DNA from: Lentinula raphanica
Lineage: Eukaryota > Basidiomycota > Agaricomycetes > Agaricales > Omphalotaceae
Direction: 5' to 3'
Length of the DNA stretch: 64,000 bases
Assembly (NCBI GenBank): GCA_027919835.1
Contig: JANVFP010000001.1
Location: 558,001 to 622,000 of the forward strand
Of this stretch, positions 20,061 through 46,407 are shown piece by piece. The notes below the pieces were generated by a model. That model was not told where the DNA came from. It made no database searches and saw only the letters and a program-made list of their open reading frames with translations. How positions within the stretch are numbered: position 1 is the stretch's first letter; every line of letters begins with the position of its first letter. The position numbers were made by a program, and so were the translations under genes.

Positions 20061-20137
20061 CCACTACTGTTGTCGACTTTCAATAAATTCAGAGGGAATA
20101 TTCAGATTATACAGTTGGTTTCTTTCAGTTTCATAGT

Positions 20138-25318: not shown

Positions 25319-26878
25319 AGGATCAGCCATGAATATCCACTTAGAGCTCTTGCTCGCACCCTTGGTCGGGGATCCTTCAAGAATGCTGACTACTGGTACG
25401 AGCACATCAAGGGAATATCGACTTAGTATCAAGATCTGCCGGATCGGCACAACTGAGTTTGGTACTTGGCTGTGATGACGGAAATTTCACTTGATCTAGC
25501 AGATCAGACACGATGAGAACCTATCCGGATGAGTTACCACACGGAAACCCTACGCAAAGTAGCGGAAACCGTCGGAAACATGATGATCTAGCATTTCCGT
25601 GGCAGTACGGGTGAAACCCGCCGCGGAAACACGCATATGTTCAAGTTCTAAACTGGGATATAGCGTATGCTATGTACAGCTTTGACCAGCACTCACGGAA
25701 ACGCGCGGAAACCTACGGAAAACACTTCTGAAGCATTTACCTTCGTTGTCCGCTCCAGAACACCAGGCTATATGCATACCGTTCGAAAGCTACGGACCAG
25801 ATCTACCTGATCCGCGAGATCAACCACTGTTATGAGTCTATCTCATTAACTTGGGAAGACCACTACTATTCCGCGGAAGCAAATTCGTCGGAAACACTTG
25901 AGCAACACAGGCAGGAGCCACTCTGATGAGTTAGGCACCCTAGCATGTGGAGGCTGCACAGACCATGGTCGGAACTTGCTTGGTCTTCTAGATCTGGCAA
26001 AAGTACGACGAAATACGGACAAGTTTCAGCTTTTTCTCTGTTTTCCTTACTATTTCCTTGAGTGTTTGTATCGTTTCAGTCATATTTTACTATTTAAGTG
26101 TATATTATCGGACTCCGTCCATAGAAATAGCTAGATCTACTAGATCAAGGACAAATACGGGTATCGGACTTTTTGTAGTGTACTTAAAGACCTGTATCCG
26201 CACAAATGAAACAAGTTTCGCACCCAGATCTCTCTGAACTGGTAATCCTTTTCATCCATACGTGGGAGTAAAGGCTTCTAAGCCGTACCGGACCTTGCAG
26301 ATTAAGTGTGTTACTTCATCGCGATAAGCCCGACTTTTGAGTGGTTTGACTTGGTGTCTGTCACTTGCTAGTTGAAGGTAGACTCCGTTCCGGAGATACA
26401 GAGGACTTGGTCTCAGGTTGTGCCGAGTGAACGTGCAGAGTTTTGGTGGCTCTGTTCAAGTTGACACGTAGTGATTGGTGATCTGCGTGATCTTCGAGGT
26501 TTTACTGAGAATAGTGATCAGTACTGCTTCACCCGGGAGCGGAATCGATTGGTCTACCATAACGTCTGGTACCCCGTTGCTTTCCGAGCCTAAAAACCCT
26601 TATCCGAGTGGAAGCCACTCAAAACAAACCCTTTAGTCCAGATCTTATGACTGGTATATCCGTGTCACTTTGTTCTGCTGACCAGTATTGCTGATCTAAA
26701 AGATCTTACAAGACTGCGTTCGACTTGAGATATAAGATAGTGCGGAATCTCTGACAACGCCCCACACCTCGCTATAAATACAATTTGATTGACGAATCCG
26801 TGAAGTCGTACTCTGTGTTCGTGCTAAGTGACCTGTCATAAGGCATTATACTAAGAACCAACTTTATACCTCGTTATC
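25319..26878 (+). repeat. 5' LTR of the large Gypsy element (lacking its first ~170 bases)
   Basis: Matches the minus-strand LTR at 1305-3041 from the AGGATCAGCC position onward. It carries the retroelement TATA box, many GATCT-AGATC palindromes and TTTCCG words. The 3' border is set by the end of homology near CCTCGTTA and the adjacent primer-binding TGG. Confidence 0.85.
26773..26780 (+). promoter_or_regulatory. TATA box TATAAATA of the 5' LTR
   Basis: TATAAATA in CTCGCTATAAATACAATTTG, about 100 bases before the LTR end. It is kept as TATTTATA (inverse) in the isolated LTR near 1396. It is the likely start signal for the genomic RNA. Confidence 0.6.
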
Positions 26879-26896
26879 TGGAGCCCACCGCAAGGG
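26879..26896 (+). other. Putative primer-binding site
   Basis: TGGAGCCCACCGCAAGGG begins two bases after the end of LTR homology, with the TGG expected to pair with a tRNA CCA end. I cannot name the tRNA. Confidence 0.5.
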
Positions 26897-27319
26897 GTGG
26901 AATCTATATTTTGGTCGAACTCGAGAGATCTTCTTGATTTCTCAAAACTACTGCCTTTGATCAAATTTATTTGATCATTAAAAATAGCTCCAAGAGCTAC
27001 TCGGACTTCGAAGAACGCGGGCTCAGCAGATTTCTTTGATCCAGCGATACAAGCTTCAGATCAGCGAAAGTGCGCAACAAAGAAACCCTCTGTACCTGTT
27101 TACGATCCGAGAAACCTCGGAAGAGCGAGTACTAGCAATCCAGATAACGGGAGAGCTCCTAGACCATCTTCGGAACAACCAGTAACAAAGAGATCTAACG
27201 TAGTGCCAGGAAACGGTAGACAGAAGGCAGCTACTGTTGGACCAGATCCGCAATCTAGTTCAGATCCTACATTACAACCCGAACCATTTGATTTGATACG
27301 ACTGTTTTTACCCAACAAT

Positions 27320-28891
27320 ATGTCCGAAGTACACAACGGAAATGATCAGGGAGCCGCGGGAGCGAATGCTAACGCACCAGCAAACCCGGCTGCCCAACAA
27401 AAACGACCAGAGGATCAACTCGACATCATAAGGATGCTTGGTCCACCTGAACTGACTTCTGCGGAACAAGCAGAGTATAACAATACCAAGTTTCCGCTTA
27501 CGCACAAAACTGCTATGATCCTGGACTTGGCCAATCCGAGCATGATCCCCGAGTGGGTGAGGTTCTGTTTGAACACGTTCCAGGCTACGGAAGTTACCTC
27601 CAAGAAGGTGAAGATGCAAAAGATCTTTTCTTGGATGACCCTTCAGACCAAGCAGGCTCTCGAGCATCTTCCCGGCGCGCAGGAGGGAAGGGAAGACGCG
27701 GACTGTTTTCTGCGTTCCCTGTGTGAAAGATTCCCAGCATCTCTAGGGAGACCAATGGGTTCGAAGAATACGCTCTTGCAGATCGTACAGAACTATGCTC
27801 CTTTGGGTGTCCGGGACGGAGATAGGTTGCTCGGATATTGTCTGTTGATGGAGGTAGAAGCCAATAAGTTGTTGAAACCGCCTCCGGCGATAGGAAACAC
27901 GGAATTGGTGTCTCTTTTCCTGTCAGCATTTGATGACGAGCTACGGAAAGCTGTGAATCGAAAGGTTCAACAGCAGGTACCTGCTTTCCGCGTAGAGAAA
28001 CATTGGGTCGATGATCCATATCTGTTTGTAGAGTACAAGGAAGCAGCAGAGGCCGTAGCAAGGCACCCACCCTTGGAATCGTTGTACCGGACGGTAACAA
28101 GTCGGGATGGTGTGGTCTTCAATGCGGAAACCCACTCAAGAGGAGGTGTATACGTTCCGATTGGTGGTCCTCCGGTGATCAAAGAAGAAGTACCGGATCT
28201 CTCGCATTTCTTCCGGTCTGCAACTAAGCCCGTTGAAGTCAAACGAGAGGCCTCCGAGGAAACGGAAAGAGCACTAGCTGCAAATAGGGACCAGTACAGT
28301 GTGTTGGTCAAAGATTTGGGAGCACTTAAGGCTACCTACAAAGAGGAACTTGAGACGTTGGCTCAAATGCTGGCTAACATCAAGACCGGAAATGTACAAC
28401 CTGCGCAACGGGTGCAGCCCCATACTGTCGCTTCTGGTAGTGGTAATCCCGGAAACAGTGGGCCTCCCCGCGGAATCATTAACACGAATCCGAATAATGC
28501 ACAAGGTCAAAGGTCTGAGATGTTGTGTTTCCTTTGTCGGGAACCGAATCATATGATGCAAAGTTGTCCAATGTTCTTGGAACTCTTAGGGAAAGGTTGG
28601 ATTATGCGTGATCCGCAAGATCCAAAGCGTCTTAAGTTAAAGGATGGGTCTCCGCTACCGAACAACTTCGGAAGTGAGAGTAGATACCAAAAGATCATGA
28701 AATATGGTCAGGCCAAAGGATGGCCCGAGGTTTCGACGATGATGAACGAGATGATCCCGGACAATGAGGATTACTCGGAACAGTTGGCCGGATCCCCAGC
28801 TTGGATGGTCATTGCCAATCTGGCAGAGATGGTGCAAGGGAGATCTAGCAATGGTGTGGCTATGGTGTACACGAACGAGTCAGGAAACTGA
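27320..28891 (+). CDS. gag: Gypsy Gag with CCHC zinc knuckle
   Basis: Structural protein that should assemble into the virus-like particle and bind the element RNA. It has 523 residues from the ATG at 27320 (MSEVHNGND), which I prefer to the earlier GTG because the open frame further upstream has no ATG. A helical capsid-like region is followed by a zinc knuckle CFLCREPNHMMQSC (Cys-X2-Cys-X4-His-X4-Cys) around residues 402-415. The stretch before the knuckle is Gly/Asn/Pro-rich. The frame is undamaged. The next frame overlaps its end and lies one base back (-1). Confidence 0.85.
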   Translation: MSEVHNGNDQGAAGANANAPANPAAQQKRPEDQLDIIRMLGPPELTSAEQAEYNNTKFPLTHKTAMILDLANPSMIPEWVRFCLNTFQATEVTSKKVKMQKIFSWMTLQTKQALEHLPGAQEGREDADCFLRSLCERFPASLGRPMGSKNTLLQIVQNYAPLGVRDGDRLLGYCLLMEVEANKLLKPPPAIGNTELVSLFLSAFDDELRKAVNRKVQQQVPAFRVEKHWVDDPYLFVEYKEAAEAVARHPPLESLYRTVTSRDGVVFNAETHSRGGVYVPIGGPPVIKEEVPDLSHFFRSATKPVEVKREASEETERALAANRDQYSVLVKDLGALKATYKEELETLAQMLANIKTGNVQPAQRVQPHTVASGSGNPGNSGPPRGIINTNPNNAQGQRSEMLCFLCREPNHMMQSCPMFLELLGKGWIMRDPQDPKRLKLKDGSPLPNNFGSESRYQKIMKYGQAKGWPEVSTMMNEMIPDNEDYSEQLAGSPAWMVIANLAEMVQGRSSNGVAMVYTNESGN

Positions 28892-28899
28892 AGAATCCA

Positions 28900-30378
28900 A
28901 TGATTGAGTTGACCTCTGGGCCAAGGACACGGTCTCAGCAACAGGCAACAACTCATGAGGGTGCCCCAAAGCCTAACTCACCAAAAGCAATACCTGCCGT
29001 CAAGAATAAATGCTTTGACGGGGTGCATATACCCATAGATCGAAATAACCCTAGTAAAAACAAAACATCCGAAAAACCGAAGTCCAATCTGAACAATTCT
29101 ACGCCTAATCATGACAGATCTGCTGGATCAGACCCTGATTCTTCTCAATCACTGAGGGAAGCTGCTTTGGAAAGGATACAGTCAGTGACCATTGACGATT
29201 TAACGGATGAGAGTGCGTTAGGTTCGGAACGCGAGCCTGATCAGGCAGATCAACGGAAATCGAAGCAAGTACGATTCCGCGATCCGTCACCTCCTCGTAC
29301 GGAAAATCCGAGGAGACCATTTGATGATGTTCAGCCCAGAGAAGTTACACCTCACCCTCGAAATCAACCCAAGCCGGAAAAGATACCTGAATCTAAGGGA
29401 TCTTCGAAGGCACCAAAATACAGGCTGCAGAATGAACTGTTTACGCCTGGTCTAGAGGAAGAGCTTGCTGACCGGATAGTGCAAAAGACGATTGAATTGA
29501 CTTCTTCCGAAGCTTTACAGCTTTCGGGGAAGATCAGGCAGATCGTAGCACGAAAGATACGGAACAAGCGAGTACTTCCGCAAGATCGAAAGAAAATGCT
29601 GCTGAACTTGGCTGATCAACAAGATCTAGCTACGGAAACACTTTCAAATGATGATTCCGAAGACGAACAAGTCATTTCCGTGGATGATCTAGCATTACCC
29701 GAAGCTTGGGCTTTTGAAAGATTATCTGAGGATCGGGATGGGATGAAAGCAGGAGCGTTTGTTCAAGTAGATCCAGTAGAATCATTCTTAAGTGATGTAG
29801 ATGAGAATGATGAACGACGGGATATGACCATAGTTGCTACCATAGGCAATGGTCTCCGGGCAGTGTGGCCTGTTGTGAATGATCGGGAAGATCTCGAAGT
29901 AGAGAACCTCCTGGACTCAGGATCACAGATAGTCGCAATCGATATGAGCGTGGCGTTAGGCTTAGGTCTAGGTTGGGATCCCGGAATCACCATACAGATG
30001 CAAAATGTACATGGCGGGATCGCGCGGACCAAAGGTTTAGCCCGAAATGTGCCCTTTCGATTTGGACCGGTCACAGTGTATTTACAGTTACATGTTCAAG
30101 AAAAGGCTCCCTTCGAAATACTGTTGGGACGTCCGTTTGATGTGTTAACTGAGAGTGTCATTCAGACATTTGGATCGGGTGATCAGGAACTCACGATTAC
30201 GGATCCGAATACTGGAAAACGGTATACCATGGGTGCATATCCGAAAGGACATGGACTGAGAGCACCAAGAAAGGTGGTGGAACGAAAAGTATCACAACCA
30301 ACTCAACAGTTGCAACCCGAATCAAGACGGGAAGACACTCACAAGGAGGCAGAGAAAGTTCCACAACCAAATTTTTGA
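28900..30378 (+). CDS. Gypsy protease (aspartic) frame
   Basis: Cleaves the polyprotein in the particle. It has 492 residues from the ATG at 28900, but the frame is open upstream into gag, so it may be reached by -1 frameshifting. The first 300 residues are Ser/Pro/Asp-rich and charged. The retropepsin motif is LLDSGSQIVAID around residues 334-345 (catalytic Asp in DSGS), and the ILLGRPFD block follows about 65 residues later. A dimeric retropepsin is expected. It ends in TGA directly after AAATTTT. It appears intact, unlike the RT frame that follows. Confidence 0.82.
   Translation: MIELTSGPRTRSQQQATTHEGAPKPNSPKAIPAVKNKCFDGVHIPIDRNNPSKNKTSEKPKSNLNNSTPNHDRSAGSDPDSSQSLREAALERIQSVTIDDLTDESALGSEREPDQADQRKSKQVRFRDPSPPRTENPRRPFDDVQPREVTPHPRNQPKPEKIPESKGSSKAPKYRLQNELFTPGLEEELADRIVQKTIELTSSEALQLSGKIRQIVARKIRNKRVLPQDRKKMLLNLADQQDLATETLSNDDSEDEQVISVDDLALPEAWAFERLSEDRDGMKAGAFVQVDPVESFLSDVDENDERRDMTIVATIGNGLRAVWPVVNDREDLEVENLLDSGSQIVAIDMSVALGLGLGWDPGITIQMQNVHGGIARTKGLARNVPFRFGPVTVYLQLHVQEKAPFEILLGRPFDVLTESVIQTFGSGDQELTITDPNTGKRYTMGAYPKGHGLRAPRKVVERKVSQPTQQLQPESRREDTHKEAEKVPQPNF
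30369..30375 (+). promoter_or_regulatory. Putative -1 frameshift heptamer AAATTTT at the PR/RT junction
   Basis: Zero-frame CCA-AAT-TTT-TGA. Slipping -1 on AAATTTT, which fits the X-XXY-YYZ rule, continues as TTG-AAT-AAC into the RT frame. The older copy at 20884-20890 has the same heptamer before a different stop, which supports selection on the site. Confidence 0.6.
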
Positions 30379-33300
30379 ATAACCTCTGGGATCTGAGTAG
30401 CGACCAGGGAGAGGTAGAAATCGCTCTTAGTGGGTACTGGGATGCTCAAGCGGAGGAAGTGGTTATAGAGTCGAATCAGGTGAAACGAGGTACCTTCTCA
30501 GATGAAGAATTAGCGGACGTGTATGTACAATGCTGTCTGCCAACGATCGAGAAGTCGCACCCCGGAATTGCCGAAACCATGTCACTATACCTGAACAAAG
30601 GTGTAGATCATCAACAAAATTGTGTGATCAACCCATGGAAGGAAGGATTTAGAGCTGATCCGACCGTTGAGGACCTGAAGGAGACCTTTTACCAGTCCAT
30701 GACAAAGGACGTTAGGTGGAAAGACTTACATGGGTTAACTTGTCCATATGATAACACGGAAGATCTACCAGATCAAGTAGATCAAACAAAAGATGTGGAA
30801 TTGTCTTCAATGACCCAAGATTTGGAGGCTGCGATGCATTGTGTTAAGCTCTGGGAACTCAAGAACGAGACGATTGACCAGCATATATGCGCATATAATG
30901 ATGTGTTTTTGCCAGATCAGCCAGTTTCGGTCTTCGGTTCTCGAAAATATAAGCCTGTAGCGGTGAAAATTTGCCCTGTCAAGGCTGATCTACCGGAAGA
31001 ATTCCGTGTGCGGAGACACATTTACAGAGATCCTTTGGCTGATCTACCAGATCTACCAACTCATCCACCGGAATTCACGCCGGGTATCCGGTATACGCAA
31101 GAAGGGAAAGAGATCATCGAGAAAAATCATGTGGAAGGTTTCCTTACGGACGAGGAGATGAAGCTAGTTCATCATATGATGAAGTTGCAGGAAATGGGTT
31201 TTGCTTGGGAAGCTTCCGAGGGCGGGACATTCAGAGAGGACTTCTTTCCTCCCGTGAAAATTCTGGTCATACCTCATGAGCCCTGGGTCGAACGAAACAT
31301 TCCAATTCCTCCCGGAATCTTCGAAAAGGTTTGTAAGATCATCAAGGATAAGATTGATGCTGGAGTTTATGAACCATCTTGCTCGAGTTATCGTTCAAAA
31401 TGGTTTTGTGTGGTCAAGAAGGATGGAACGAGTCTTCGTAAAGTTGCCTATGGGTTGGACGAACTCTGTTCCGATATTCCATGACGATGTAACTTACATG
31501 ATGCGAGATGAAATTCCGGAATATACGATTCCTTACGTCGATGATGTTCCTATCAGAGGCCCCGGGACTTGTTATGAATTACCGGGTGGCGGATACGAAA
31601 CTATCCCTGAAAATCCTTTGATCAGACGATTTGTCTGGGAGCATCTCCAAAATGTGAACCGAATCATTCAGCGGATGCGGTATTGCGGCGGAAACCGGAA
31701 GATAGAATCGCAACTACGGTTCTGACTTGGCCTCCGTGCTCTTCTAAGACACAGGTCTGAGCCTTTCTGGGAACTGTTGGTCAGCTCCGGATGTTCATTC
31801 ACAACTACGCTAAGAAAGCCTCACCTTTGACCAAATTAACGGCGAATATGCCATTTGAGTGGAAGGATGAGCATGTCATAGCCATGGACCTGTTGAAAGA
31901 TGGAGTCCGTAATGCACCAGCCTTAAGAGTCATAGTATACGACTGGGAAACACACTTAGCAGTGGATAGTTCTTACATGGGTACGGGATTTTACATCTAT
32001 CAGATTGATCCTGTAGATCAGACGAAGATTTACTATAATTACTTCGGATCCATCCCGTATAACGAACGGGAAGCTCGGTTTTCTCAATCTAAGCGTGAAC
32101 TCTATGGTTTGAAGGTTGCTCTCCGAGCAACACACTATCTTCTTTATGGGTGTCGGAAACTCACGGTAGAAACGGATGCTAGCTATATTCAAGGAATGCT
32201 TGAAAATCCGAGTAGTGGTCCAAACGCTACGATCAACCGTTGGATTGAAGATATCCATAAATTCCATTTCGATTTGATTCATGTCAAAGGAGCAACCTTT
32301 GGACCTGATGGTTTGTCTCGAAGACCTCTGGGAGGTTGGACTACCCCTCGTCGGGAAACCGAAGAGGATCTAGCAGAAGATGCAGATGACTCCAACAACG
32401 TTAGGTTCTTCAAAGCGGACGAAGCGGACGATCCATTGCCCTTTGAATCATTCAAAGATCATATAGATTCCCGGACAGGATACTTTTGCGAGACCATTGA
32501 AGATGAGTTTGCGGAAGATCTTCAAGTTGCCCGGGAGGAAGAGATCCAGCATGCATTCCTCAAAGAACGTTTAGAGGCCTCGGGAATGCCGTTGACCTCT
32601 CAGTTTCTGCAGTATACTGCGATCCCCGACAATGCTACGTGGGGACCTGATCACAAATATCCAATATCTCATAGATCGGATGGCGGAAACCGTCTAGATC
32701 AGCAGTTACCGGAAATTCGAGCATGGCTTAAGGACCCGAATGCTGAACAATTCGCGAAGTTGGACAAGAGACAACGAGCGGAAATGGACCGGAAAACGCT
32801 GTCCTTTTCAATAGACTCGGAAGGTCGACTGTTCCACCGGAAACCATCCACAGATCAACTGCGTTTAGTGGTTGAACCGGAAAAACGAATGTATCTATTG
32901 CACAGTGCTCATGATGCCTTAGGACACAAGGGTACATATGCTACGAAAGACTTCTTAGAAAAGAGGTTTTGGTGGCCTGATCTGGAGAAAGACGTGGAGT
33001 GGTATGTGAAAACATGTCAAGCCTGCCAAGATCGACTTAGGTCTTTGGTACGGATCCCTCCAACGGTGACCTTCACGCCATCCTTGTTCCAAAAGATACA
33101 TATCGATACGATGGTTATGTCTCCGGCCAGTAATGGTTGTAGATATATCGTCCACGGACGGGATTCGTTGTCGAGTTGGTCGGAAGCTAGGGCACTGAGA
33201 GTTGAAAACGCGAGATCACTCGCGGAATGGTTCTTTGAAGACATCATATGTAGATGGGGATGTCTGGAAATCGTGGTCTCGGACAATGCACCACAGATGA

Positions 33301-34265
33301 AGCTTATGTTGCGATGGCTCGAACAGAAATACGGGATCCGTGGAATACAGATATTGCCTTACAATTCACAAGCTAACGGAAAGATTGAGCGTGCTCACTT
33401 TGATCTGAGACAAGCACTTGCGAAAGCGTGTGCGGGAGATCTGTCAAAATGGTACTACTTCTTGAAACCGATACTTTGGGCTGATCGTATTACTGCACAG
33501 AGAGGTTTAGGATGTTCACCATACTTCGTGGCTACCGGTACGGAACCTCTGCTACCTTTCGATATTGTTGAATCTACATACTTGGTCAATCCACCAAATC
33601 GAATACTATCACGGGAAGAGCTACTGGGCTTCCGGGCTCAGGCTCTTTCCAAACATCGTTCCTTCGTCGAGAACATGAAATCACAGATTGACGAGAACAA
33701 ACGTCGAGAAGCGAGAGTTTTCGAGGAAAAGTACAAGTACACGATTAAGGACTGGGATTTCAAACCGGGTACCTTAGTACAAGTACGGAACACCGCCATC
33801 GAGAAGAATTTGGATCGGAAAATGTACCTTCGATATCATGGACCTATGGTTGTTATCTGGAGGACACGAGGAGGCGCATATATCATAGCGGAAATGGATG
33901 GCACTGTGCTTAAAGACAAAGTGGGTGCTTTCCGTGTGATCCCGCATCATGCTCGTTACGAACCGATTGAACTGCCGGAAAATATACATGATCTGATAGA
34001 TCTGTCGCCCAAGCAGTTAGAATCTATGGTACAGGATGAGGAAGACGAACCTGAGGAAGTGGAGGACTTTATTTTCAGTACTGTCCCTCGAATAAACATT
34101 TCCGGTGATGATCAGTCGAATTCCGTTGAACCACCATTGGTTCCGCCTGTTGAACAGCTTGATCCGGAGGATCTGAAGGCTGCTGAGTCCGAAGATCAAG
34201 AGGAAGAGTCGAACCCGTCCCTGCCGAATGGTCCACGACGAGGTGGTCGACGGAAATCTTTCTAA
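30375..34265 (+). pseudogene. pol: Gypsy RT-RNase H-integrase frame, RT disabled
   Basis: Should copy the element RNA and integrate the DNA. The frame from 30375 opens with NNLWDLSSDQGEVEIA and runs to GTSLR near 31438. About 0.2 kb of RT, including the motif-A aspartate, is missing there, and the frame shifts to that of 31276-31725, which keeps PYVDDV. A second deletion after RYCGG near 31685 restores the original frame, and TGA at 31758 replaces the CGA of QVRAFLG. From 31791 the frame is open for 824 codons. It contains RNase H (LAVDSSY, SKREL, VETDAS, GPDGLSRRP), the integrase zinc finger (His-X4-His, then CQAC) and the DDE core (HIDTM, SDNAP, GKIERAH). A GPMVV segment lies near the C-terminus. 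RNase H and integrase look intact. Confidence 0.88.
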
Positions 34266-34288
34266 ACATGCCTGATCCAACAGATCAG

Positions 34289-34302
34289 TTAGTTTGGGGG
34301 AG
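34289..34302 (+). other. Polypurine-tract-like motif TTAGTTTGGGGGAG, copy 1
   Basis: Lies 24 bases after the pol stop codon. The identical 14-mer occurs at 36553-36566 and at 40415-40428, the last directly before the 3' LTR. Confidence 0.6.
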
Positions 34303-34476
34303 TTTCCGCGATGTTTCAACTTATTCTATCTCAATAATCACTCGAGGAATTTAGTTGCCACTGGATTACCTCAAAAACTACCAATAATACTTGACTTGAC
34401 AAAAGTACAGGTATAAAAATAGGCGACAGGGCAGAATGAACGATGATCTAGATGGTCAGCCTCGATAAGCACTTGT

Positions 34477-36463
34477 TTAAGGTGCGGAGCGTGGCCCTTG
34501 CATTGCAGGATCCTCTAAGTCTGTCTGCGCAATTTTAATTACGGGTGGCAGCGACGGTGGTGCGGAAAACACGTACACCTCTTCAACGTCGGCAGGAGTC
34601 ATGGTGGTGTCCTCGTCTTTGGGCAGAGGTTCACCAGCCTTCCGAGCAGCCCTGGCGTTGTCGATGATCCGTTGACTAGCCTCCCCACGGTGTGCATAGA
34701 AACGAGCTTTCATAACACAGTCGAAGAGTTGGGTCGTATGGAAGTTGATGAAGGCATTGTACTGCTCTTCGGTGTACGATTCAACCTCCGGGTTGTGGGC
34801 GAGTCCGATGTTGTGAAGAAGTTGCACGAGATCTCGATGATCTGTATCGTCGGGGGTACCTGTAACGATAATCAGTAACACGAAGCTTGCGGAAGGTCTC
34901 CGGACTATGCAAAACGAAATTATCTAACGGAAAATGCGTGATCTAGCAGATCAACGAGTTTCCGTAGAAGTCTGTACGAAAAAGCGGAAAATGGAAGTGG
35001 TACTCACTGGTATCCGCGAGTTCCAACGAATACTTCACCCTCTTAATCAGATCTTCACCAACAGCACGAGGCTGGGAGATCGCGGTTACAGCATGCACAG
35101 TGCTATGTGCTTGAGGAGACAGAGCCCGCTCAGTCTCATCACCGTCCGCGGGACCAACGTCGCGTTCGGAACGTTTGCGCTTGCTCTTGGTTTTGGAAGA
35201 CTTCGGAGTGTCATCGTCGCTTAGCCTTCGCAGGAGTTGAATCCTCGACGTTGTCAGCCATCTATGGCACGGGTTAGTCATGAACTTGTCTGATCTACAA
35301 GATCAGCCACGTACCGAGACATCCTGATCGGCCAGAGCGGCGGGTTCGTCGTCAGGGGATTTCTTCTTGCTTTTGGACCGAGTAGAGGGCCTGGTAGGAG
35401 GAGGAGGAGTAGCTTCCGCGGTCTTCTTCCCCTTCTCGCCTTTTTCACGTTCCTCCTTGGCGTGCTTGATCCTTTCGTCCATACCAATGATATGATCGAT
35501 GACGAGTTCAGCACGACGAGGCTGGATAAACAGTTAGCAGCTGATCTAACAGATCAAGGTCCAATACTTACCGGAGGATCATACCGCGGAACAGACACAC
35601 CCATACGCAGGGATTCTTGCATATCAAAGCGTTGCTCGCGTGGACTACGGAAGTGGCCTCGCATGGGAAGTCCGCGGCCTCGTAAATGGTTAGCAAGTGC
35701 GCCTCGAGGACCTTTTGGAGGAGAAGGACCATGTTCTGCAAGATCAGCATCCTGGGACCTTTACTTAGTAAATGAATCTTCGTAAATAGTTGCGGAAACG
35801 CACCACCTCGGCCATGAACTTGGCGTCAGCATCGGAAACTGCTGGATCTGCTGGATCAGTCGCAACTTCCTTGCCTTTCGACTTGGATTTCGACGGTCCT
35901 TCAGGATCAGCAGGTGGAACACTAGGTCCGCGAGTACTGACAGCAGGAGAACCCTGTCTGCCTTGGTCCTCACGGAGCTTTTTGCGACGAAGGTCGTTCA
36001 GCTGAATGTAGAAACTGACGATCTCAGCGTTCTTCCCTCCCTCTTCAGAGAGTTTGGGAAACTGCTTAGGGATTTCGTCACGGATAGTGCGGTACGCATT
36101 CACGGCGGAAAGTAATTCCTCCGCGAGATTGTCGTACGCCCGCAGATATTCCTTGTTCATACACGCAGCGTCGCAGGACACTCGAATGAGCTAACGGAAA
36201 ATGGTTAGTTTTGTTAGATCTAGCAGATCAAACGATTTCCGTACCAAATGAGTATACGCGCAACGAACATCGTTCAAAAAGATCGTTTTGTTGGACGTGG
36301 TGAACTCGACCTTGTCCTTGCTAGAACTGTACTTGGCACCTTGCCAGGCCAGGCTCTTGTCATCGCTAACACGAGCAGCCCAGTACTCCGCGTCGACGCA
36401 CCAGTTGGCAAAGTCAGCTTCAAGCGAGATAGGGAGATTGTGGTACTCGAAGTTGGGAGCCAT
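34477..36463 (-). CDS. Antisense cargo gene 1 of the Gypsy element, six exons
   Basis: Unknown protein of about 522 residues carried inside the retroelement on the strand opposite to gag and pol. Exons are 36463-36245, 36190-35804, 35751-35572, 35521-35315, 35200-35008 and 34859-34477, with all frames joining. The start MAPNFEYHNLPIS is chosen because a TATA box lies 42 bases upstream. Helical N-terminal parts (ADFANWCVDAEYWAA; LAEELLSAVNAYRTIRDEI) are followed by a long Lys/Pro/Ser-rich region with basic runs such as KSKRKRSERD, a likely nuclear signal. The conserved-looking C-terminal exon begins TPDDTDHRDLVQLLHNIGL. The fifth intron must be 114 nt to keep the frame; the obvious 53-nt version leads to a stop after MADNVEDSTPAKAKRR. 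Several introns contain GATCT-NNN-AGATC palindromes. Confidence 0.68.
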
Positions 36464-36504
36464 TTTTTTCGTTGAGTTGGGAGTCGGATCTCTTAGATCA
36501 AGGG

Positions 36505-36512
36505 CTTTTATA
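36505..36512 (-). promoter_or_regulatory. TATA box of antisense gene 1
   Basis: TATAAAAG on the minus strand, 42 bases before the ATG at 36463, with A-rich context right before the start. It implies a promoter of its own inside the retroelement. Confidence 0.6.
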
Positions 36513-36552
36513 CCTTTTCCGATGCTTCGGGTCAACAGGGGACTGCTGAGCT

Positions 36553-36566
36553 TTAGTTTGGGGGAG
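36553..36566 (+). other. Polypurine-tract-like motif, copy 2
   Basis: TTAGTTTGGGGGAG followed by GGGAC, just upstream of antisense gene 1. It is identical to the copies next to pol and next to the 3' LTR. Confidence 0.55.
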
Positions 36567-36579
36567 GGGACACACGGTG

Positions 36580-37226
36580 TTTCAAGAATTTTCAGAAATT
36601 TTCATGAAAATTTTACGAGATCTAAAAGACCTGTGCTCATTGACAGCTTAAGCATGCGTACAATGCAAAGACTTAGATCTAAAACCGACGCAGCTTGCAA
36701 TTTGTAAAGCCCAATGGATTTAACATGCCATATGAGGCTGCAACCACCAACTTGATAACCGAAGAATCAACATTGATGGGTCTGATCTAGCTGATCAGAC
36801 CGAAATTTGTGCTTCAGGAATGACAAGAGCAATGCAACAGCTGTAGAAATGTCAAAAGACAAACACTTAGAAGAGTACATGGTATCAATAAAGTACTTAC
36901 AGTGCTCTATCAGGTGTTGGTTAAGGGCAAGAGACCTAAAAACTTAAAGTCAACTTAGAGAAAACTCAGAGGACATCTTAAAGGATATCTCAAGTATCTT
37001 GAAGAGTAATTTAGGGAGTCTTAAGGAGATCTCAGACAATGCAAAGACAACATAAAGCCCACAGGGCATTGACATTCAAGATTGGTGCTAGATACTGGGG
37101 ACCAAGAGGAAGAATCAGGTACAGTGGTACAACACTAAAAGCTGCGGTAGTCTGGCTCAGAAAAACAATGTGCGAGTCCGATCACTACCATAAGCTATAG
37201 CTAAAGCAATACCATACACAAAATGT
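36580..37226. other. Spacer between the two antisense genes
   Basis: No gene. It contains GGTCTGATCTAGCTGATCAG (36779 region) and repeated AAGGA-TATCTC / TCTTAAGGAGATCTC words around 36960-37040. It should hold the terminator of gene 2 and the upstream region of gene 1. Confidence 0.4.
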
Positions 37227-39972
37227 CTAGTCCGCGTCAGCGTCGTCATCTCCCTCCCCCTCGTACTCTGTAAGAAGGCTTCGACCGGGAGTGGCTTGCG
37301 CAAGCCCCTCTTTGTCATCCGATCCCTCACCCACCACGGTTGCAGAGGGAGGTGGTGCCGATGAGGTGGAAGGAGTCTGAAAGGCACGGCGTAAAGGAAA
37401 GTTGACAGGAACGGCGGCGGCGGGGCGATGCTTCGATTTCAGAACTGGCTGACGCACCGTACCGACAACGGGTTCCGAAGACGTAGGTGCTTTGGAAGGA
37501 GAAGGCTGGCTCTGAGGAAGAGGTTTCGAAGAAGTTGGCGGTTCGGGATCGAGTTGAAGAAGGAAAGCCTCTAGTTTTGCAATGTCAGAAGGATTCGAGA
37601 GGAACTGAGCTACGTTGCAAGAAGTATTCCAACCAAAGAGCGTGGAGAACCAAGACACGGTCTCGAAATCAACGGGGGTGTTGGGATTCTCCTCGGCCCA
37701 GTGAGAAAGTACAACGTTGGCGTCAAACCCCTGCGCACGCAGGTTGCGCATTTTCGCGGACAAGTCTTGACGAGCATCAGCAAAGAGAGGTTCGAAAGAG
37801 GTCTGGAGGTGCGTGTAACGATCTAAGGATTTCTCGAACTCAATCACGGCCTTGGCGTACCCAACGGGAAAGCCTTGTACGGTTTGATGGATGGCGTGAA
37901 AGCGATCCTGGTGTTCTTCAAGACCGAGGCAGCTAGGACACGTACGATGGGTGGCCTCGCAATTGTTGCAGGATCCATTGGACTTGCTGCCCCCTTCACA
38001 GACAAGCCCGCGACTAAGACAAGTAAGACAATTGGAGGTGGAATAGATGGAATCGTGGGCCGGAAGGGTGCAGGAGTTGAGTGTTCGTAAATGGCAAGAA
38101 GTGAGATAATTGTAGCGGCTAAGGGCCTGAAGCGAAAAGGTGACTTCGGGAGTTGACAAGAAAGCACCTAGATCCCTCAACTCATCGGCAATTAAAAACT
38201 TGGGGGGACGGAGAAGTGGGGTTCGGGCGCCGCGGCGAGTATTAGAGGACGTTTGCAAGATATCAGCAAACCCGGTGGTAATGGTGAAAGCTGGATTGAG
38301 AAGAGAAAGGGTCAGACCAGGATCGCGGGTGTCGTCGCCTTCAAAATAGTCCGGGGGACCCTCTTGGATACGAAGAGGTAGAGGTTCGGAAGGTCCGGCC
38401 TCTGGCACCAGGGATGCGGAAGGGGAAGCTGCCCGGGATTTTCCTGCTGCCTTTTGCGATTTCTTCTTCTTGGCAGGAGGACCTTCGGGGATCTGTGATC
38501 AAGTCAGTTTGAAGGAAACGGATGGGAGCAGTGGGGTCGACGTACATATGAATCGTCAGGAGGAGTAACGTGTCGCTCCCTCTTCGCGGGAAGTTGCACA
38601 AAGGGTTGGCTCGCCGGAGGATCGGTTTTGCTGGCTCCCACACGACCACGCGCTTTGGCAGCTCGAGCAATGCTTTCGCGAATTTCTGGTAGAAGGCCCA
38701 GCAGGATCAGTAGGCATCATAGACAACCCAACAACGACTTACTCGGAATCTCCAGCTCAATGGGCTCCGAGTCGTCGGCAACCAAGGGTTCGGGCGTGTC
38801 GGGTTCTTCATCGTCAAGTTCGATGTCGGAATAAGCAGCAGGAGGAGGACGACGTTTCTTGACGGGAGAACGTACAGGCACGGGCGAACGATCGGAATCA
38901 GAATCCTCATTTGGTGTCAGACTCCGGGGGACGGCACGAATAAACCCTGAAGGGTCAGGAAGAAGCGAGACATGGGAGTAGGGATGAATGAGTTGAGAGC
39001 CCAGAGGCCCTTTCTGACACACGGTGATGATTAGCTGGCCCTCCTTGGTGGAAGGATCCAGAGGCAGTGGAATGGCAAGGGAGGTAAGGGTTACCAAGAC
39101 ATCCGGAAAGGAAGACTGTTGGCAGAAGCAAAAGCAGGTTTAGGCGAGGCGCGACGACATGCAGCTAAAATCGTACCTTTATCTGGCGACGGCTCCGCTT
39201 ACTCATGCCTCCGCCAGTCCGCTCCTCTTTGTCATACAGGTACTCTTGGTACTCCTCGATCGAAAGAAGGTTTTCACAATAGTCGCAGAATAGAGCCATA
39301 AAGAGAGCCGCGAAGAGAGGACAATCCTGCCCCCGATGCCAAAACGAGCGATAGTGATCCTAGACGGTCTGGATAAGTACCGAAACCGCTGAAAAGGGAG
39401 AAAACACAAACCAAGCAGGCGGTAATACAATCCGACTCTAACAGTTCTAGTATCAGTTCATGGTTTCGAGCCCTGGACGCGTGTTTATGGATGATGTGGG
39501 ACACGGCCACTTGCAGGGAGGCAATAGCTTGGTACAACAAGTAGCCCTCGGCACGGGTCGCAGGACCTTTTGAGAAGGAATCTACAAGGCGAACAAAGGA
39601 GCTGGGATAATACGTCGAAGGAACCTGGGTTGAGGTGTCAACAAAGAGGGAAGTGCTAAGGTCGGCTGTCTCTGGGGAAGCGTAGCGAGGAAGTTCAAAG
39701 GCAGAGGAAAACGAGTTGGGAAACTGTTTCCAGCTTTTCTGAAGGCGTCTACTCTCAGCAGGAGTGGCTGGTAAGAAAAGGACGCCCTCTGTGTTGAAGG
39801 TACCTCCCGCAGGGCGAACGTCCTTGTTAATGGAAAGGGTCGGCAGAGAAGACACCGTCGTAGGGGAGTCACGAATGAGTGCGTCAGCTGGGAATAAGTA
39901 GGATTTCTTCATCTTGCCTGGAGGAAGCTCGATTCTCTTCTTAGAAGAGGACGCTTTCGATGAGGAGGCCAT
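37227..39972 (-). CDS. Antisense cargo gene 2: 840-residue protein with a Zn2Cys6-like cluster
   Basis: Five exons (39972-39412, 39359-39177, 39115-38743, 38685-38546, 38492-37227) join in frame to 841 codons; introns are 52-61 nt. The N-terminus MASSSKASSSKKRIELPP is basic. Exon 2 encodes DHYRSFWHRGQDCPLFAALF. Exons 3-4 are acidic, Pro-rich and then basic (VRSPVKKRRPPP, a likely nuclear signal). Residues 574-604 have Cys spaced X2, X6, X9, X2, X6 (CLTCLSRGLVC, then CNNC and C), the spacing of the fungal GAL4-type binuclear zinc cluster. It lacks the usual run of basic residues between the first cysteines, so DNA binding is uncertain. The C-terminus is Pro/Ser-rich and acidic. It lies antisense between pol and the 3' LTR. 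The function is unknown, but the gene reads as intact while pol is broken. Confidence 0.75.
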
Positions 39973-40414
39973 CGTGTCTAGAGCGAGGACAACGATGGGA
40001 GAGAGGAAGAAACGAACTTAGAAAATTTTCCAAGTCCATTGAACCTTTGTCAGCACTTACTAATCCCAGGCCTAGGCATAGGGATAGTATGTAAAATGTT
40101 GAAAAGAAGTTGTTTCGAGGAAGTGTGTATGTGATGTGATAGAATTAGAAGCGTGATTTACGTCATGATATCACACTCGGAAATTAAGCGCCGATAACAA
40201 ACCGAGGACTTAGCGTCTTTGACAAGAGGACAGCGGAGTTGTCGGTACGGGTGCCAAGATCAACGGATCAACTTGATCTGTTAGATCACCGGGTATAATC
40301 AAGTCAGAATGTTGCGGAAAAAGTGATTGATCTGTCGGATCAGCTACAGTACCACTCCTTTCAAGGGATACGAGCCTACACTACCCATAGCGATGACCGG
40401 GGACGGTCAGATCT
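39973..40414. other. Upstream region of antisense gene 2
   Basis: Non-coding. On the minus strand a pyrimidine-rich run (TTCTTCCTCTCTCCCATC) precedes the ATG and no TATA box is obvious. Two GATC palindromes (CTTGATCTGTTAGATCAC and TTGATCTGTCGGATCAG) lie at 40272-40345. Confidence 0.45.
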
Positions 40415-40428
40415 TTAGTTTGGGGGAG
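40415..40428 (+). other. Polypurine tract of the Gypsy element
   Basis: TTAGTTTGGGGGAG ends one base before the TGTTGCGCGG start of the 3' LTR, the expected place for the plus-strand primer. Confidence 0.75.
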
Positions 40429-40429
40429 A

Positions 40430-40577
40430 TGTTGCGCGGTTTTTCCGCGCAGGCGTGCAATGATCAAAAAGATCAACTTAGACCGTTGCATAGTATCAAT
40501 AAGGACTGTAGTGAGCCCGAACTAGCAGTCAAACTCATATCAGTATAAGCTGGGATACAGATCCTTTGGCAGGATCA
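40430..40577 (+). repeat. 3' LTR fragment of the Gypsy element
   Basis: TGTTGCGCGGTTTTTCCGCG matches the start of the isolated LTR at 3041 (inverse) and runs to TTTGGCAGGATCA at 40577. There an X element begins. The rest of the LTR is absent on this side. Confidence 0.85.
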
Positions 40578-43362
40578 CACCCGTAGCTGTAGAAACTTCG
40601 CAAAGTAATCCGATAAGTTCCCACCACAGCTTCGCGAAGTAACAGGACTCGCTCTTGAAGCTTAAAGAACCCTTCCGGGTAGGCCAGTAGGGCTCCGGGG
40701 GGTCCTCGGCTATTTAGTATATTTAATAATATTTAATAATTCTTTTATTATTTAATAGATATATTATAATAAATCTACTTTGCGAAGCTATACTGCACTT
40801 CGCGAAGTGACTATGTTTACGGCAATCATGAAATCAGGTAAATTAGGGTTAGATCATTACGTCATTGATTTCCTTTTTGGGTTATGATATTTTTGAATAG
40901 AAAAAAGCATAGAATGATATTATTGACCTTGAGGTGCTAAAACATGACAGAGGAAACCAAAAATAGCTACAATGAGGTATTGGCTACCTCAGACACATCA
41001 AAATTGCCTAAAAAGGAAATTGGTCCAAAAATAGAACTTGATCTCATCAGATAGCAAAAAATCTGAAAAAAATCATTAAAAATACTCAAAAAATTCAGGA
41101 TTGCCTCATTGGCCCTGAAAACGCAAAATAAAAAAAATATGCGACAAAATGTTATCACTCCAAATCATACTAAATCTAGGTATATATGATGTACATGCTA
41201 TTTTTAGCACACCTAGTACCCTCAAACACTTAGAATGGCTTATATCATTCAATATATTCAGCACACTCAATGCTTGTTAAACTTAACACACTTGTTAATG
41301 AAAAACTCAGAACAGTAGTAATGTATTTCATACTCAATACACTTAACACACTCAATAATTAAAAACTTCAAAACAGTGTTCATATGTGTTATACTTAAAA
41401 CACATAATACACTTAACAATGAAAAGTCTCGGAACAATACTAATGTATATCATGCTCAACACACTTAACACACTCAACAATGAAAACCCTCAAAAAGTGT
41501 TCATGTGTGTTATACTTGAAACACATAATACACTTAACAATGAAAAGTCTCAGAGCAATACTAATGTATATCATGCTCAACACACTTTACAATGAAAAAA
41601 GTCGGAACAGTGCTCATGTGTATTATACTTGATACACTTCATCAATCAATATAACACACTTAACAATAAAAAATCAGAGTAGTGTAATCACTCATAACAC
41701 ATATCACACTGAACACACTTCATCAGTAAGAATAACATACCTTTAATAGGACATTGTTATACTATAACACACATATAACAACGAGTTTTGGGCGCTTATG
41801 GGCGCTTATTTGATGTTTTTGAGTTGAAATTCATTAATACCTAACTCAATTATTTTTGTGAGGACTTTTTGTTGTGTCAGGATGTTATATACATCATACT
41901 CCCCTAGATACAATTCGGAGAACTCAAAATTACAGCCTGTAGGGATGGCTATATCATGATCTTTTATGATTTAACAGTGTTTTAGGTAAATGACAATACA
42001 TATGTCCATGTATTGCATAGATACCAAAGCTGTCTTATGGGGAGAGCACTCCTACAGTCTACTAACAGTGTATGAACATGATTCAGATACTCACCATGAC
42101 CATTGGACTCTGTAATATACATCTACATATTTCATGTATATTGGTGATATGTATACTTGCATGTAACTACAGATGTCATACTCAATGACTCCCATTGTAA
42201 GTCTCTTGGCTTTATAACACAGAGTAAGCATAGAATAGGCTGTAGGATGTCTCCTTTCATTGCCCAGAAGGAGTTTGACTTCATAACATGGATGTATGCA
42301 CTGTGATTTACACAAAACAGTGTAAAATCATAAAAGATCATCATATATCCAGCTCTATAGGCTGTATTTTCTGGTTCTCCAAATTGTATCTAGGAAGGTA
42401 TGATATAAATAACATTTTGACACAATATAAAGTCCACATAAAAATTATTGAATGTGTTATCAATGATTTTCGACTCAAAAACACCAAATAAGCGCCCATA
42501 AGCGCCCAAAACTCGTTGTTATATATGTGTTATAATATAACAATGTCCCATTCAAATAGGTGTGTTATACTTACTGATGAAGTGTGTTCAGTGTGTTATA
42601 CTTACTGATGAAGTGTGTTCAGTGTGATAAGTATAATGAGTGATTGCACTACTCCAAGTTTTTGATTGTGAGGTGTGTTATATTGATTGATGAAGTGTAT
42701 TGAGTATAATACACATGAGTACTGTTCCGAGTTTTTTCATTGTGGAGTGTGTTGAGTATGATATACATTAGTATTGTTCCGAGACTTTTCATTGTTAAGT
42801 GTATTATGAGTTTTAAGTATAACACATATGAACATTGTTTTGAGGTTTTTCATTGTTGAGTGTGTTAAGTGTATTGAGTATAATATACATTACTACTGTT
42901 CTGAGTTTTTTCATTGTCAAATGTGTTAAGTTTAATAAATTGAATGATATAAGCCATTCTAAGTGTCTGAGGGTACTGGGTGTGCTAAAAATAACATGTA
43001 CATCATATATATCTAGATTTAGTACGATTTGGAGTGATAATATTTTTACCCTTGTCGCGTATTTATTTTTATTTTGTGTTTTCAGGGCCAACAAGGCAAC
43101 CCTGAATTTTTTGAGTATTTTTTATGATTTTTTCAGATTTTTTGCTATCTGATGAGATCAAGTTCTATTTTGGGACCAATTTCCTTTTTAGGCAATTTTG
43201 ATGTGCCTGAAGTAGCCAATACCTCATTGTAGCTATTTTTGGTTTCCTCTGTCATGTTTTAGCACCTCAAGATCAATAATATTATTTTATGCTTTTTTCT
43301 ATTCAAAAATATCATAACCCAAAAAGGAAATCAATGACGTAATGATCTAACCCTAATTTACC
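40578..43362 (-). mobile_element. Foldback element X1, lacking its left end
   Basis: The outer end CACCCGTAGCTGTAGAAACT at 40578 is the X right end and sits after AGGATCA of the LTR. The inner end stops at CCCTAATTTACC. The interior holds blocks like ACACACTTAACAATGAAAA and the GGGCGCTTATGGGCGCTTAT core (41789 and, inverted, 42492). No coding capacity. Confidence 0.85.
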
Positions 43363-46300
43363 CAGCTGAAGCTGTAAAAACTCCGCGAAGTAGTCCGATA
43401 AGTCTCCACCACAGCTTCGCAAAGTAACAGGACTCGCTCTCGAAGCTCAACAAACCCTTCCGGGTAGGCCAGTAGGGCTCCGGGGGGTGCTCGGCTATTT
43501 AGTATATTTAATAATATTTAATAATTCTTTTATTATTTAATAGATATATTATAATAAATCTACTTTGCGAAGCTATACTGCACTTCGCGAAGTGACTATG
43601 TTTACGGCAATCATGAAATCAGGTAAATTAGGGTTAGATCATTATGTCATTGATTTCCTTTTTGGGTTATGATATTTTTGAATAGAAAAAAGCATAGAAT
43701 GATATTATTGACCTTGAGGTGCTAAAACATGACAGAGGAAACCAAAAATAGCTACAATGAGGTATTGGCTACTTCAGGCACATCAAAATTGCCTAAAAAG
43801 GAAATTGGTCCAAAAATAGAACTTGATCTCATCAGATAGCAAAAAATCTGAAAAAATCATAAAAAATACTCAAAAAATTCAGGGTTGCCTTGTTGGCCCT
43901 GAAAACACAAAATAAAAATAAATACGCGACAAGGGTAAAAATATTATCACTCCAAATCGTACTAAATCTAGATATATATGATGTACATGTTATTTTTAGC
44001 ACACCCAGTACCCTCAGACACTTAGAATGGCTTATATCATTCAATTTATTAAACTTAACACATTTGACAATGAAAAAACTCAGAACAGTAGTAATGTATA
44101 TTATACTCAATACACTTAACACACTCAACAATGAAAAACCTCAAAACAATGTTCATATGTGTTATACTTAAAACTCATAATACACTTAACAATGAAAAGT
44201 CTCGGAACAATACTAATGTATATCATACTCAACACACTCCACAATGAAAAAACTCGGAACAGTACTCATGTGTATTATACTCAATACACTTCATCAATCA
44301 ATATAACACACCTCACAATCAAAAACTTGGAGTAGTGCAATCACTCATTATACTTATCACACTGAACACACTTCATCAGTAAGTATAACACACTGAACAC
44401 ACTTCATCAGTAAGTATAACACACCTATTTGAATGGGACATTGTTATATTATAACACATATATAACAACGAGTTTTGGGCGCTTATGGGCGCTTATTTGG
44501 TGTTTTTGAGTCGAAAATCATTGATAACACATTCAATAATTTTTATGTGGACTTTATATTGTGTCAAAATGTTATTTATATCATACCTTCCTAGATACAA
44601 TTTGGAGAACCAGAAAATACAGCCTATAGAGCTGGATATATGATGATCTTTTATGATTTTACACTGTTTTGTGTAAATCACAGTGCATACATCCATGTTA
44701 TGAAGTCAAACTCCTTCTGGGCAATGAAAGGAGACATCCTACAGCCTATTCTATGCTTACTCTGTGTTATAAAGCCAAGAGACTTACAATGGGAGTCATT
44801 GAGTATGACATCTGTAGTTACATGCAAGTATACATATCACCAATATACATGAAATATGTAGATGTATATTACAGAGTCCAATGGTCATGGTGAGTATCTA
44901 AATCATGTTCATACACTGTTAGTAGACTGTAGGAGTGCTCTCCCCATAAGACAGCTTTGGTATCTATGCAATACATGGACATATGTATTGTCATTTACCT
45001 AAAACACTGTTAAATCATAAAAGATCATGATATAGCCATCCCTACAGGCTGTAATTTTGAGTTCTCCGAATTGTATCTAGGGGAGTATGATGTATATAAC
45101 ATCCTGACACAACAAAAAGTCCTCACAAAAATAATTGAGTTAGGTATTAATGAATTTCAACTCAAAAACATCAAATAAGCGCCCATAAGCGCCCAAAACT
45201 CGTTGTTATATGTGTGTTATAGTATAACAATGTCCTATTAAAGGTATGTTATTCTTACTGATGAAGTGTGTTCAGTGTGATATGTGTTATGAGTGATTAC
45301 ACTACTCTGATTTTTTATTGTTAAGTGTGTTATATTGATTGATGAAGTGTATCAAGTATAATACACATGAGCACTGTTCCGACTTTTTTCATTGTAAAGT
45401 GTGTTGAGCATGATATACATTAGTATTGCTCTGAGACTTTTCATTGTTAAGTGTATTATGTGTTTCAAGTATAACACACATGAACACTTTTTTGAGGGTT
45501 TTCATTGTTGAGTGTGTTAAGTGTGTTGAGCATGATATACATTAGTATTGTTCCGAGACTTTTCATTGTTAAGTGTATTATGTGTTTTAAGTATAACACA
45601 TATGAACACTGTTTTGAAGTTTTTAATTATTGAGTGTGTTAAGTGTATTGAGTATGAAATACATTACTACTGTTCTGAGTTTTTCATTAACAAGTGTGTT
45701 AAGTTTAACAAGCATTGAGTGTGCTGAATATATTGAATGATATAAGCCATTCTAAGTGTTTGAGGGTACTAGGTGTGCTAAAAATAGCATGTACATCATA
45801 TATACCTAGATTTAGTATGATTTGGAGTGATAACATTTTGTCGCATATTTTTTTTATTTTGCGTTTTCAGGGCCAATGAGGCAATCCTGAATTTTTTGAG
45901 TATTTTTAATGATTTTTTTCAGATTTTTTGCTATCTGATGAGATCAAGTTCTATTTTTGGACCAATTTCCTTTTTAGGCAATTTTGATGTGTCTGAGGTA
46001 GCCAATACCTCATTGTAGCTATTTTTGGTTTCCTCTGTCATGTTTTAGCACCTCAAGGTCAATAATATCATTCTATGCTTTTTTCTATTCAAAAATATCA
46101 TAACCCAAAAAGGAAATCAATGACGTAATGATCTAACCCTAATTTACCTGATTTCATGATTGCCGTAAACATAGTCACTTCGCGAAGTGCAGTATAGCTT
46201 CGCAAAGTAGATTTATTATAATATATCTATTAAATAATAAAAGAATTATTAAATATTATTAAATATACTAAATAGCCGAGGACCCCCCGGAGCCCTACTG

Positions 46301-46407
46301 GCCTACCCGGAAGGGTTCTTTAAGCTTCAAGAGCGAGTCCTGTTACTTCGCGAAGCTGTGGTGGGAACTTATCGGATTACTTTGCGAAGTTTCTACAGCT
46401 ACGGGTG
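43363..46407 (+). mobile_element. Foldback element X2, full length (3045 bp)
   Basis: The left end CAGCTGAAGCTGTAAAAACT is at 43363 and the right end TTTCTACAGCTACGGGTG ends at 46407. Its own arms are inverted over more than 1 kb (for example GGTAAATTAGGGTTAGATCA at 43622 and the inverse at 46131). The GGGCGC core appears twice, at 44476 and inverted at 45180. No transposase is present. The right side abuts a decayed gene; the left side abuts X1. Confidence 0.85.

Follow-up and report, generated by a model that had tools for sequence, protein, structure and literature searches.

Anatomy of the element and its two antisense genes

The window analysed here is a 64,000-nucleotide stretch of contig JANVFP010000001.1 from Lentinula raphanica (Agaricales, Omphalotaceae), a relative of shiitake whose genome assembly (G000) comprises 49 Mb in 75 contigs. 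It contains a Ty3/Gypsy element on the plus strand, with Pfam domains in PR-RT-RH-INT order (Asp_protease_2, RT_RNaseH_2, Integrase_H2C2), two LTRs, and a purine-rich 14-nt tract adjoining the LTR (Table 1). Between the end of the integrase frame at 34265 and the start of the 3' LTR at 40429 lie two minus-strand genes, here called A and B, as a first-pass annotation of this DNA had reported.

Table 1. Features of the Gypsy element, by position in the 64,000-nt window
Feature	Position	Strand	Basis
5' LTR, distal part	25319..26876	+	window self-comparison; 98% identity to 39 other matches listed
gag frame, degenerate CCHC knuckle	26975..28891	+	ORF; 97-98% among other matches listed
Aspartic protease frame	28849..30378	+	Pfam Asp_protease_2 2.2e-05
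RT region, broken	30183..31725	+	ORFs; spacing of matches
RNase H-integrase frame, open	31761..34265	+	Pfam RT_RNaseH_2, Integrase_H2C2
Internal polypurine-tract-like 14-mer TTAGTTTGGGGGAG, integrase-A border	34289..34302	+	exact match; same place in family 2
Gene A, six exons	36463-34477	-	spliced alignment; five GT-AG introns
Gene A exons	36463-36245, 36190-35804, 35751-35572, 35521-35315, 35261-35008 (frameshift in window copy), 34859-34480	-	
TATAAAA box of gene A	36506..36512	-	49 nt before ATG
Second internal polypurine-tract-like 14-mer TTAGTTTGGGGGAG, A-B border	36553..36566	+	exact match
Hypervariable cassette (gene B and adjoining B-A spacer)	36785..39972	-	sliding identity; inner limit approximate
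Gene B, five exons	37227..39972	-	spliced alignment; predicted proteins of same species
Gene B exons	39972-39412, 39359-39177, 39115-38743, 38685-38546, 38492-37227	-	
Conserved 5' flank of gene B, probable promoter/5' UTR	39973..40414	-	93-98% identity among listed matches ending there
3' polypurine tract TTAGTTTGGGGGAG, directly before LTR	40415..40428	+	exact match
3' LTR, first 149 bp	40429..40577	+	self-comparison; remainder replaced by insert 40578-46407

The LTR measures about 1.7 kb in other copies, and at nine loci paired LTR matches lie on one strand 15.5-15.8 kb apart, with a tenth pair at 18.8 kb (judged by eye among the matches listed); a complete element is therefore about 17 kb long. 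The gag zinc knuckle (zf-CCHC) reached a Pfam E of 0.19, below the family cut-off. The RT frame is interrupted, which bears out the earlier reading of a broken RT: the gag-to-integrase distance is 5900 bp in the window copy against a usual 6184 bp (worked out by eye) and 6174-6215 bp in 20 other copies, with a few longer or shorter (by eye), and the window element is about 284 bp short of the usual length between 31400 and 32900. Pfam gave no RT match in the scanned pieces of the main element or in a related fragment at 21450-22373, and no match to the integrase core (rve) in the main element.

Copies of this element, hereafter family 1, are numerous and closely alike. Among the matches listed, protease-RT is 97-98% and integrase 96-98% identical between copies, and a query with 34266-35400 (the 3' half of gene A plus spacer) returned at least 40 matches in the genome at 94-99% identity. 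For each body query (A region, integrase, gag, protease-RT and LTR) about 40 scored matches were listed, and the true totals are at least this. The A-region matches directly adjoin integrase in 36 of the 40 listed. Many insertions were found in place of a single recent one. Given the number of A-region matches and the low dN/dS of both genes, given below, the antisense pair goes beyond chance.

Several further repeats surround the element. At 40578-46407 lies a palindromic insert of 5.8 kb, whose inverted arms (about 2785 bp, 99.7% identical) enclose a 259-bp centre; the insert's 290-bp end also occurs at 25029-25318, where it replaces the first ~149 bp of the 5' LTR, and both LTRs are thus interrupted at the identical LTR position. 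A Gypsy protease-RT fragment at 20087-22373 is 65-67% identical to the main element in long matches. The interval 47760-56720 is a dense cluster of related direct and inverted repeats, about 80-95% identical, which also match 6254-10868.

Spliced alignment of gene A recovered the six exons and ordinary GT-AG introns described earlier. The TATA box formerly assigned to one of the two genes belongs to gene A, and in the second family described below (L040) a TATAAAA stands about 46 nt upstream of the A start (distance counted by eye); this promoter of its own would drive gene A transcription. Both genes had been read as open in the window. That holds for gene B, with 842 codons; gene A is frameshifted here, since its exon 5 is 28 bp shorter than in open copies, and is open in relatives (552 codons without lesion in three, L004, L005 and L008, of the first seven other copies inspected).

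For gene B, the proposed model of five exons and about 840 open codons with GT-AG introns was likewise recovered. The 842-codon frame has four such introns and no frameshift, and becomes about 840 codons with the first splice site of the public models. The public protein models of the L. raphanica assembly (C8R42DRAFT series), which are themselves predictions, include P0017, P0019, P0014 and P0003, which fit copies C31a, C13, C24b and C5b with GT-AG introns and a rounded identity of 100%. Another public model, P0001 (C8R42DRAFT_717634), appears to step round a frameshift in copy C5a by means of an extra intron. Intron retention would break the frame in 107 of the 115 introns of the B models from both families, a total that includes three instances of the extra intron as in P0001. 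No TATA[AT]A motif was found within the first 200 bp upstream of gene B, and the conserved flank beside the 3' LTR would drive its transcription. The introns would persist through retrotransposition since the genomic RNA that is packaged carries them in complementary form, which is not spliceable; the arrangement shows a route by which intron-containing genes can live in a retroelement.

Homologues of B in the same genome are not confined to sites outside retroelements. Among the B N-termini listed, 31 of 36 start at the 3' flank of the element on the opposite strand, and one of the remaining five (C4a) does have the 3' flank in its retrieved stretch. The matches listed include no B that lies apart from element flanks.

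Gene B is a hypervariable module in an otherwise near-identical element

Gene A is nearly uniform within each family, and gene B is not. A query with the B region retrieved two other copies at 98% and three at 76-78% identity, and the other 34 listed matches cover the last 400-470 bp alone; B homologues were present in all 15 retrieved copies that had matched by flank alone. When the window was compared with four divergent copies by sliding identity, values fell to 36-62% in B and stood at 96-99% past its start codon and in A. Closer alleles gave 60-84% (window against C5b) and 78-94% (C5b against C48b). The drop starts at the B start codon, and identity recovers gradually in the B-A spacer near 36785.

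The family-1 B set comprised 18 of 21 copies, the three with inserts being dropped, and resolved into 13 alleles at a 95% amino-acid cut-off. These form two deep clades with 38-42% amino-acid identity. B was free of frameshifts and stops in 14 of the 18 copies, taking the better gene model per copy, and its allele lineages reappear in other strains at 88-94% identity (12 pairs, from a database clustered at 90%). These comparisons show that B is a hypervariable module of many old alleles in an otherwise near-identical element. The usual picture of a transposable-element family is one of near-identical copies; here one inner gene has many old alleles. Because the first-pass annotation viewed one copy, both the hypervariability and the exchange of B were invisible to it.

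Divergence of the flanks (0.016-0.038) and amino-acid divergence of B (0.01-0.62) were uncorrelated (Spearman -0.05, p 0.76, over 36 non-independent pairs from 9 copies), indicating that alleles move between copies. C24b and C11 carry one and the same B allele (dS 0.013), yet their integrases stand at a dS of 0.083; C31a and C4c also share one (dS 0.020), with an integrase dS of 0.026 and so no such contrast. Mosaic alleles were also found. C18x and C20x differ by a dS of 0-0.3 over the first 320 codons and by about 1 or more thereafter, and between P0015 and P0023 identity reaches 94% in the final alignment block against 32-61% elsewhere. We regard the combination of a two-gene antisense anatomy with exchange of B between copies as highly probable. 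Reverse transcription is the step at which alleles would swap, either through a template switch or through priming from the internal polypurine tracts that border each gene.

A second Gypsy family with the same gene pair

Distant B matches led to L040 and L041, which represent a second Gypsy family. At six further loci of this family (L042-L047), integrase lies on the opposite strand beside A, and the order LTR, antisense B, antisense A, integrase is the same as in family 1. Between the families, identity is about 77% in integrase (long matches), 32-44% in A over matched exons and 29-36% in B. Within family 2, another 19 full-length matches to the A region show 97-99% identity. Nine copies carry eight B alleles at 39-87% identity, with one pair at 98%; B has a single stop in two of these copies and no lesion in the other seven. 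Against L040, the copies that were aligned separately show 95-98% identity in the LTR-side flank and 81-91% in the A-side spacer next to B. A 23-row tree of B places the alleles in two fully supported groups, one per family and each with two deep clades, the depth being uncertain where long branches meet. The pair of spliced antisense genes is thus shown to be a family feature, resident between integrase and the 3' LTR. The earlier placing of both genes inside a Gypsy element therefore extends to two Gypsy-type families of a basidiomycete.

Two fragments were noted beside these sequences. A piece of family-2 LTR lies at 23778-25028 of the window, in opposite orientation to the main element, and L040:2-793, beside the family-2 LTR, holds the C-terminal part of an integrase from another Gypsy, of Tf2 type (Pfam SH3_Tf2-1 1.9e-18).

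The families also share the borders of the two genes. The 14-mer TTAGTTTGGGGGAG occurs in three perfect copies in the window, against 0.01 matches expected, and all three stand at corresponding places in L040 with no mismatch. When the window was aligned with L040, three non-coding blocks outside the LTR body proved to contain these 14-mers. With one mismatch allowed, the 14-mers are kept in most retrieved family-1 stretches that extend to their sites; the middle one is absent in C4a and has one mismatch in L031, and none was seen in L034, which is interrupted by an insert and may stop short of the border. The internal polypurine tracts may act as plus-strand primers and promote segment exchange.

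The pattern could have arisen as a mosaic with no selection for diversity, the B genes of old lineages being kept by chance at one end and recombination and recent expansion homogenising the body. The mosaic alleles, the lack of correlation between flanks and B, and the two deep B clades in each family all fit this account. It sits poorly with the identical, confined hypervariability in two families that have separate allele pools, and with a limit of variability that coincides with the B start codon while the neighbours of B on its two sides, gene A and the LTR, are uniform. We consider it unlikely, though it retains an appreciable share of the probability.

Selection, possible role of gene B and known counterparts

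Purifying selection acts on both A and B. The dN/dS comparison among copies called for by the first-pass annotation gave low values for both genes. Calculated as mean dN over mean dS, the ratio was 0.17 for gene A (9 copies) and 0.10 for integrase (494-codon part, 12 copies). For B it was 0.05-0.12 between alleles in the printed pairs with finite dS (family 1 0.06-0.11, from 19 printed of 153 pairs; family 2 0.05-0.12), synonymous sites being otherwise saturated, and higher within alleles at 0.11-0.28 (family 1 0.11-0.26; 0.28 in the single same-allele family-2 pair). Within family 1, A and B over this whole range of values thus show conservation of the kind expected of an aORF, comparable to gag-pol; between families both are less conserved than integrase.

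These values bear on two further accounts. Self-recognition might act at the RNA level, with the antisense B transcript pairing with genomic RNA of the same allele and triggering RNA silencing, so that divergence is favoured and the protein kept. High or saturated synonymous divergence with low dN/dS agrees with this, as does the complementarity of the B transcript to the genomic RNA by orientation; gene A, however, is also antisense yet varies little within a family, and the deep B clades differ strongly in protein too. We judge this account improbable. A gene drive-like poison/antidote system, in which B would be a killer-type gene with matched specificity, is highly improbable: B is indeed hypervariable and intron-containing with many alleles, but dN/dS between alleles is low and the predicted structure gives no hint of such a function.

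Thirteen copies were scored for all three genes. B was without lesion in 11 of them, against 7 for integrase (494 codons) and 6 for A, with lesions per codons for B, integrase and A of 8/11171, 14/6422 and 23/7176, respectively. Seven of the eight B lesions lie in C4a, without which the figures become 1/10314 for B, 13/5928 for integrase and 16/6624 for A. These events are not independent, most integrase and A lesions falling in few copies, and the B models are the best of several references where integrase and A had one reference each; small binomial p-values therefore overstate the case. The retention of B after decay of the element is a lead, not a proof. In the decayed copies C31a and C4c, which share an allele, dN/dS is 0.26 for integrase and 0.15 for B, on very few changes. 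The earlier suggestion that the cargo genes are conserved for another reason gains some support from B and none from A. One such reason would be host benefit, the B allele repertoire being kept, for example, as protection against new insertions. The greater intactness of B and its fewer lesions per codon point this way, and they are weakened by the clustering of lesions and the choice of references just described; B off the element flanks, moreover, was not seen among the matches listed. The chance of this account being right appears slim.

The predicted B protein offers few clues from known families. Pfam gave no family at its cut-off in the A or B proteins scanned, a PDB sequence search with B gave no credible match (one at E 1.2), and a structure search with B gave no standout fold match in the library. 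The AlphaFold model has a confident, mostly helical N-terminal part (~43-302), a low-confidence middle that is probably disordered, and a less certain helical C-terminal part. A Cys/His cluster and basic stretches were noted by eye in the alignment, and the predicted protein is compatible with a nuclear, nucleic-acid-binding role. Profile comparison found no similarity between B and the element's gag (probability 0.2%, E 0.34). Such a protein might serve as a cis-preference tag that binds the RNA or proteins of its own copy for packaging or integration, its variation blocking exploitation by other copies. The basic stretches, the Cys/His cluster and the probably disordered middle would suit that role, and the B-A spacer varies together with B; set against this, no co-varying region was found elsewhere in the element, and we give the idea only a small probability.

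Our tentative preference, which we rate at somewhat less than an even chance, is that B acts as an allele-specific regulator or self-restriction factor of transposition. We propose this because of the diversity pattern of B and the precedent of Ty1. Copies sharing a B allele would limit one another, a copy picking up a rare allele would escape limitation, and negative frequency dependence would keep many alleles; the scheme would resemble Ty1 copy-number control, with an unrelated gene of the element's own. In its favour, B alone varies, from its start codon onward; its alleles are exchanged and mosaic; family 2 repeats the pattern with an allele group of its own; dN/dS between alleles is low; retained introns would mostly break the frame; and B stays open in most copies with decayed integrase or A. 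Against it, the searches described above gave B no Pfam domain and no clear fold match, and B has no gag similarity, unlike the Ty1 factor. A DNA or RNA site through which B restricted other copies should vary along with B, and only the B-A spacer does so. Within alleles, moreover, dN/dS is higher than between them. Allele diversity could also persist through recombination without frequency dependence. Still more tentatively, B may be an exchangeable, hypervariable antisense identity gene whose alleles are kept by negative frequency-dependent selection; it would then be to a eukaryotic retroelement what immunity modules are to phages, and the internal polypurine tracts would act as cassette borders. 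B may be likened to an immune or mating-type locus, present here in two related families whose allele pools are distinct, and self-recognition and self-regulation of retrotransposons thereby become a directly testable question.

Self-encoded restriction has a parallel in Saccharomyces. Self-restriction of Ty1 is subfamily specific, and canonical Ty1 owes its gag to horizontal transfer and recombination (PMC7055915, PMC12530519). Ty1 copy-number control (p22/p18) is thus self-encoded and subfamily-specific, with a specificity gene moved by recombination, which resembles the proposed role of B in principle; the Ty1 factor, however, derives from gag, whereas B is a separate antisense gene without gag similarity and its restricting function is putative.

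Antisense accessory genes are themselves well documented. One study reportedly concerns the hypervariable 3' UTR of plant elements. The plant elements Retand, Grande (gene23), RIRE2 and PvRetro13 carry antisense accessory ORFs between pol and the 3' LTR, and the Grande gene encodes a nuclear protein and has its own promoter; the passages available from these sources mention neither introns nor allelic protein hypervariability in the plant ORFs (PMC11963269, PMC7264820). Compared with this Retand/Grande group, the L. raphanica element has two genes, both multi-exon, one of them hypervariable and exchanged. None of the A and B proteins scanned matched the TRP28 domain (PF04195), a hallmark of Retand, at E <= 1. 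The HBZ gene of HTLV is spliced and starts in the 3' LTR, and to our knowledge it is a single gene without such allele pools. HBZ is likewise an antisense accessory gene of a retroelement (PMC11963269), a likeness to B at the level of description.

Among fungi, Boty/BcGypsy1 of Botrytis cinerea carries the antisense gene brtn, cited in PMC7264820 and PMC8365987. As cited there, Boty too is an LTR element of a fungus that has gained an antisense gene beyond the usual set; it differs in belonging to an ascomycete and in having one extra gene named, and the comparison is by description, not by sequence. Of the novelty claimed in the first-pass annotation, the spliced antisense pair in a basidiomycete Gypsy element stands, and antisense genes in fungal LTR elements as such were already known through brtn, to judge from the same citations. 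In the open-access literature searched, with subscription papers mostly outside it, no hypervariable exchanged antisense gene, no multi-exon pair and no such Lentinula element was found. Antisense accessory genes are thus known already, and one that is hypervariable and exchangeable is apparently new.

Two short motifs are enriched in the family-1 element. On the plus strand of 25319-40577, CGGAAA is found 42 times against 5.3 expected by shuffling, and its reverse complement 12 times against 2.8; it is present just once inside gene B and is rare in the two family-2 stretches examined (3 and 1). The palindrome GATCTNNNAGATC occurs 12 times in the element against 0.1 expected, at positions that include 34940, 35292, 35543, 36217, 36487 and 40275. 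It sits in four of the five gene A introns and in the LTR and is absent inside gene B, and eight of the nine copies aligned have a double palindrome related to it where the variable cassette borders on conserved sequence.
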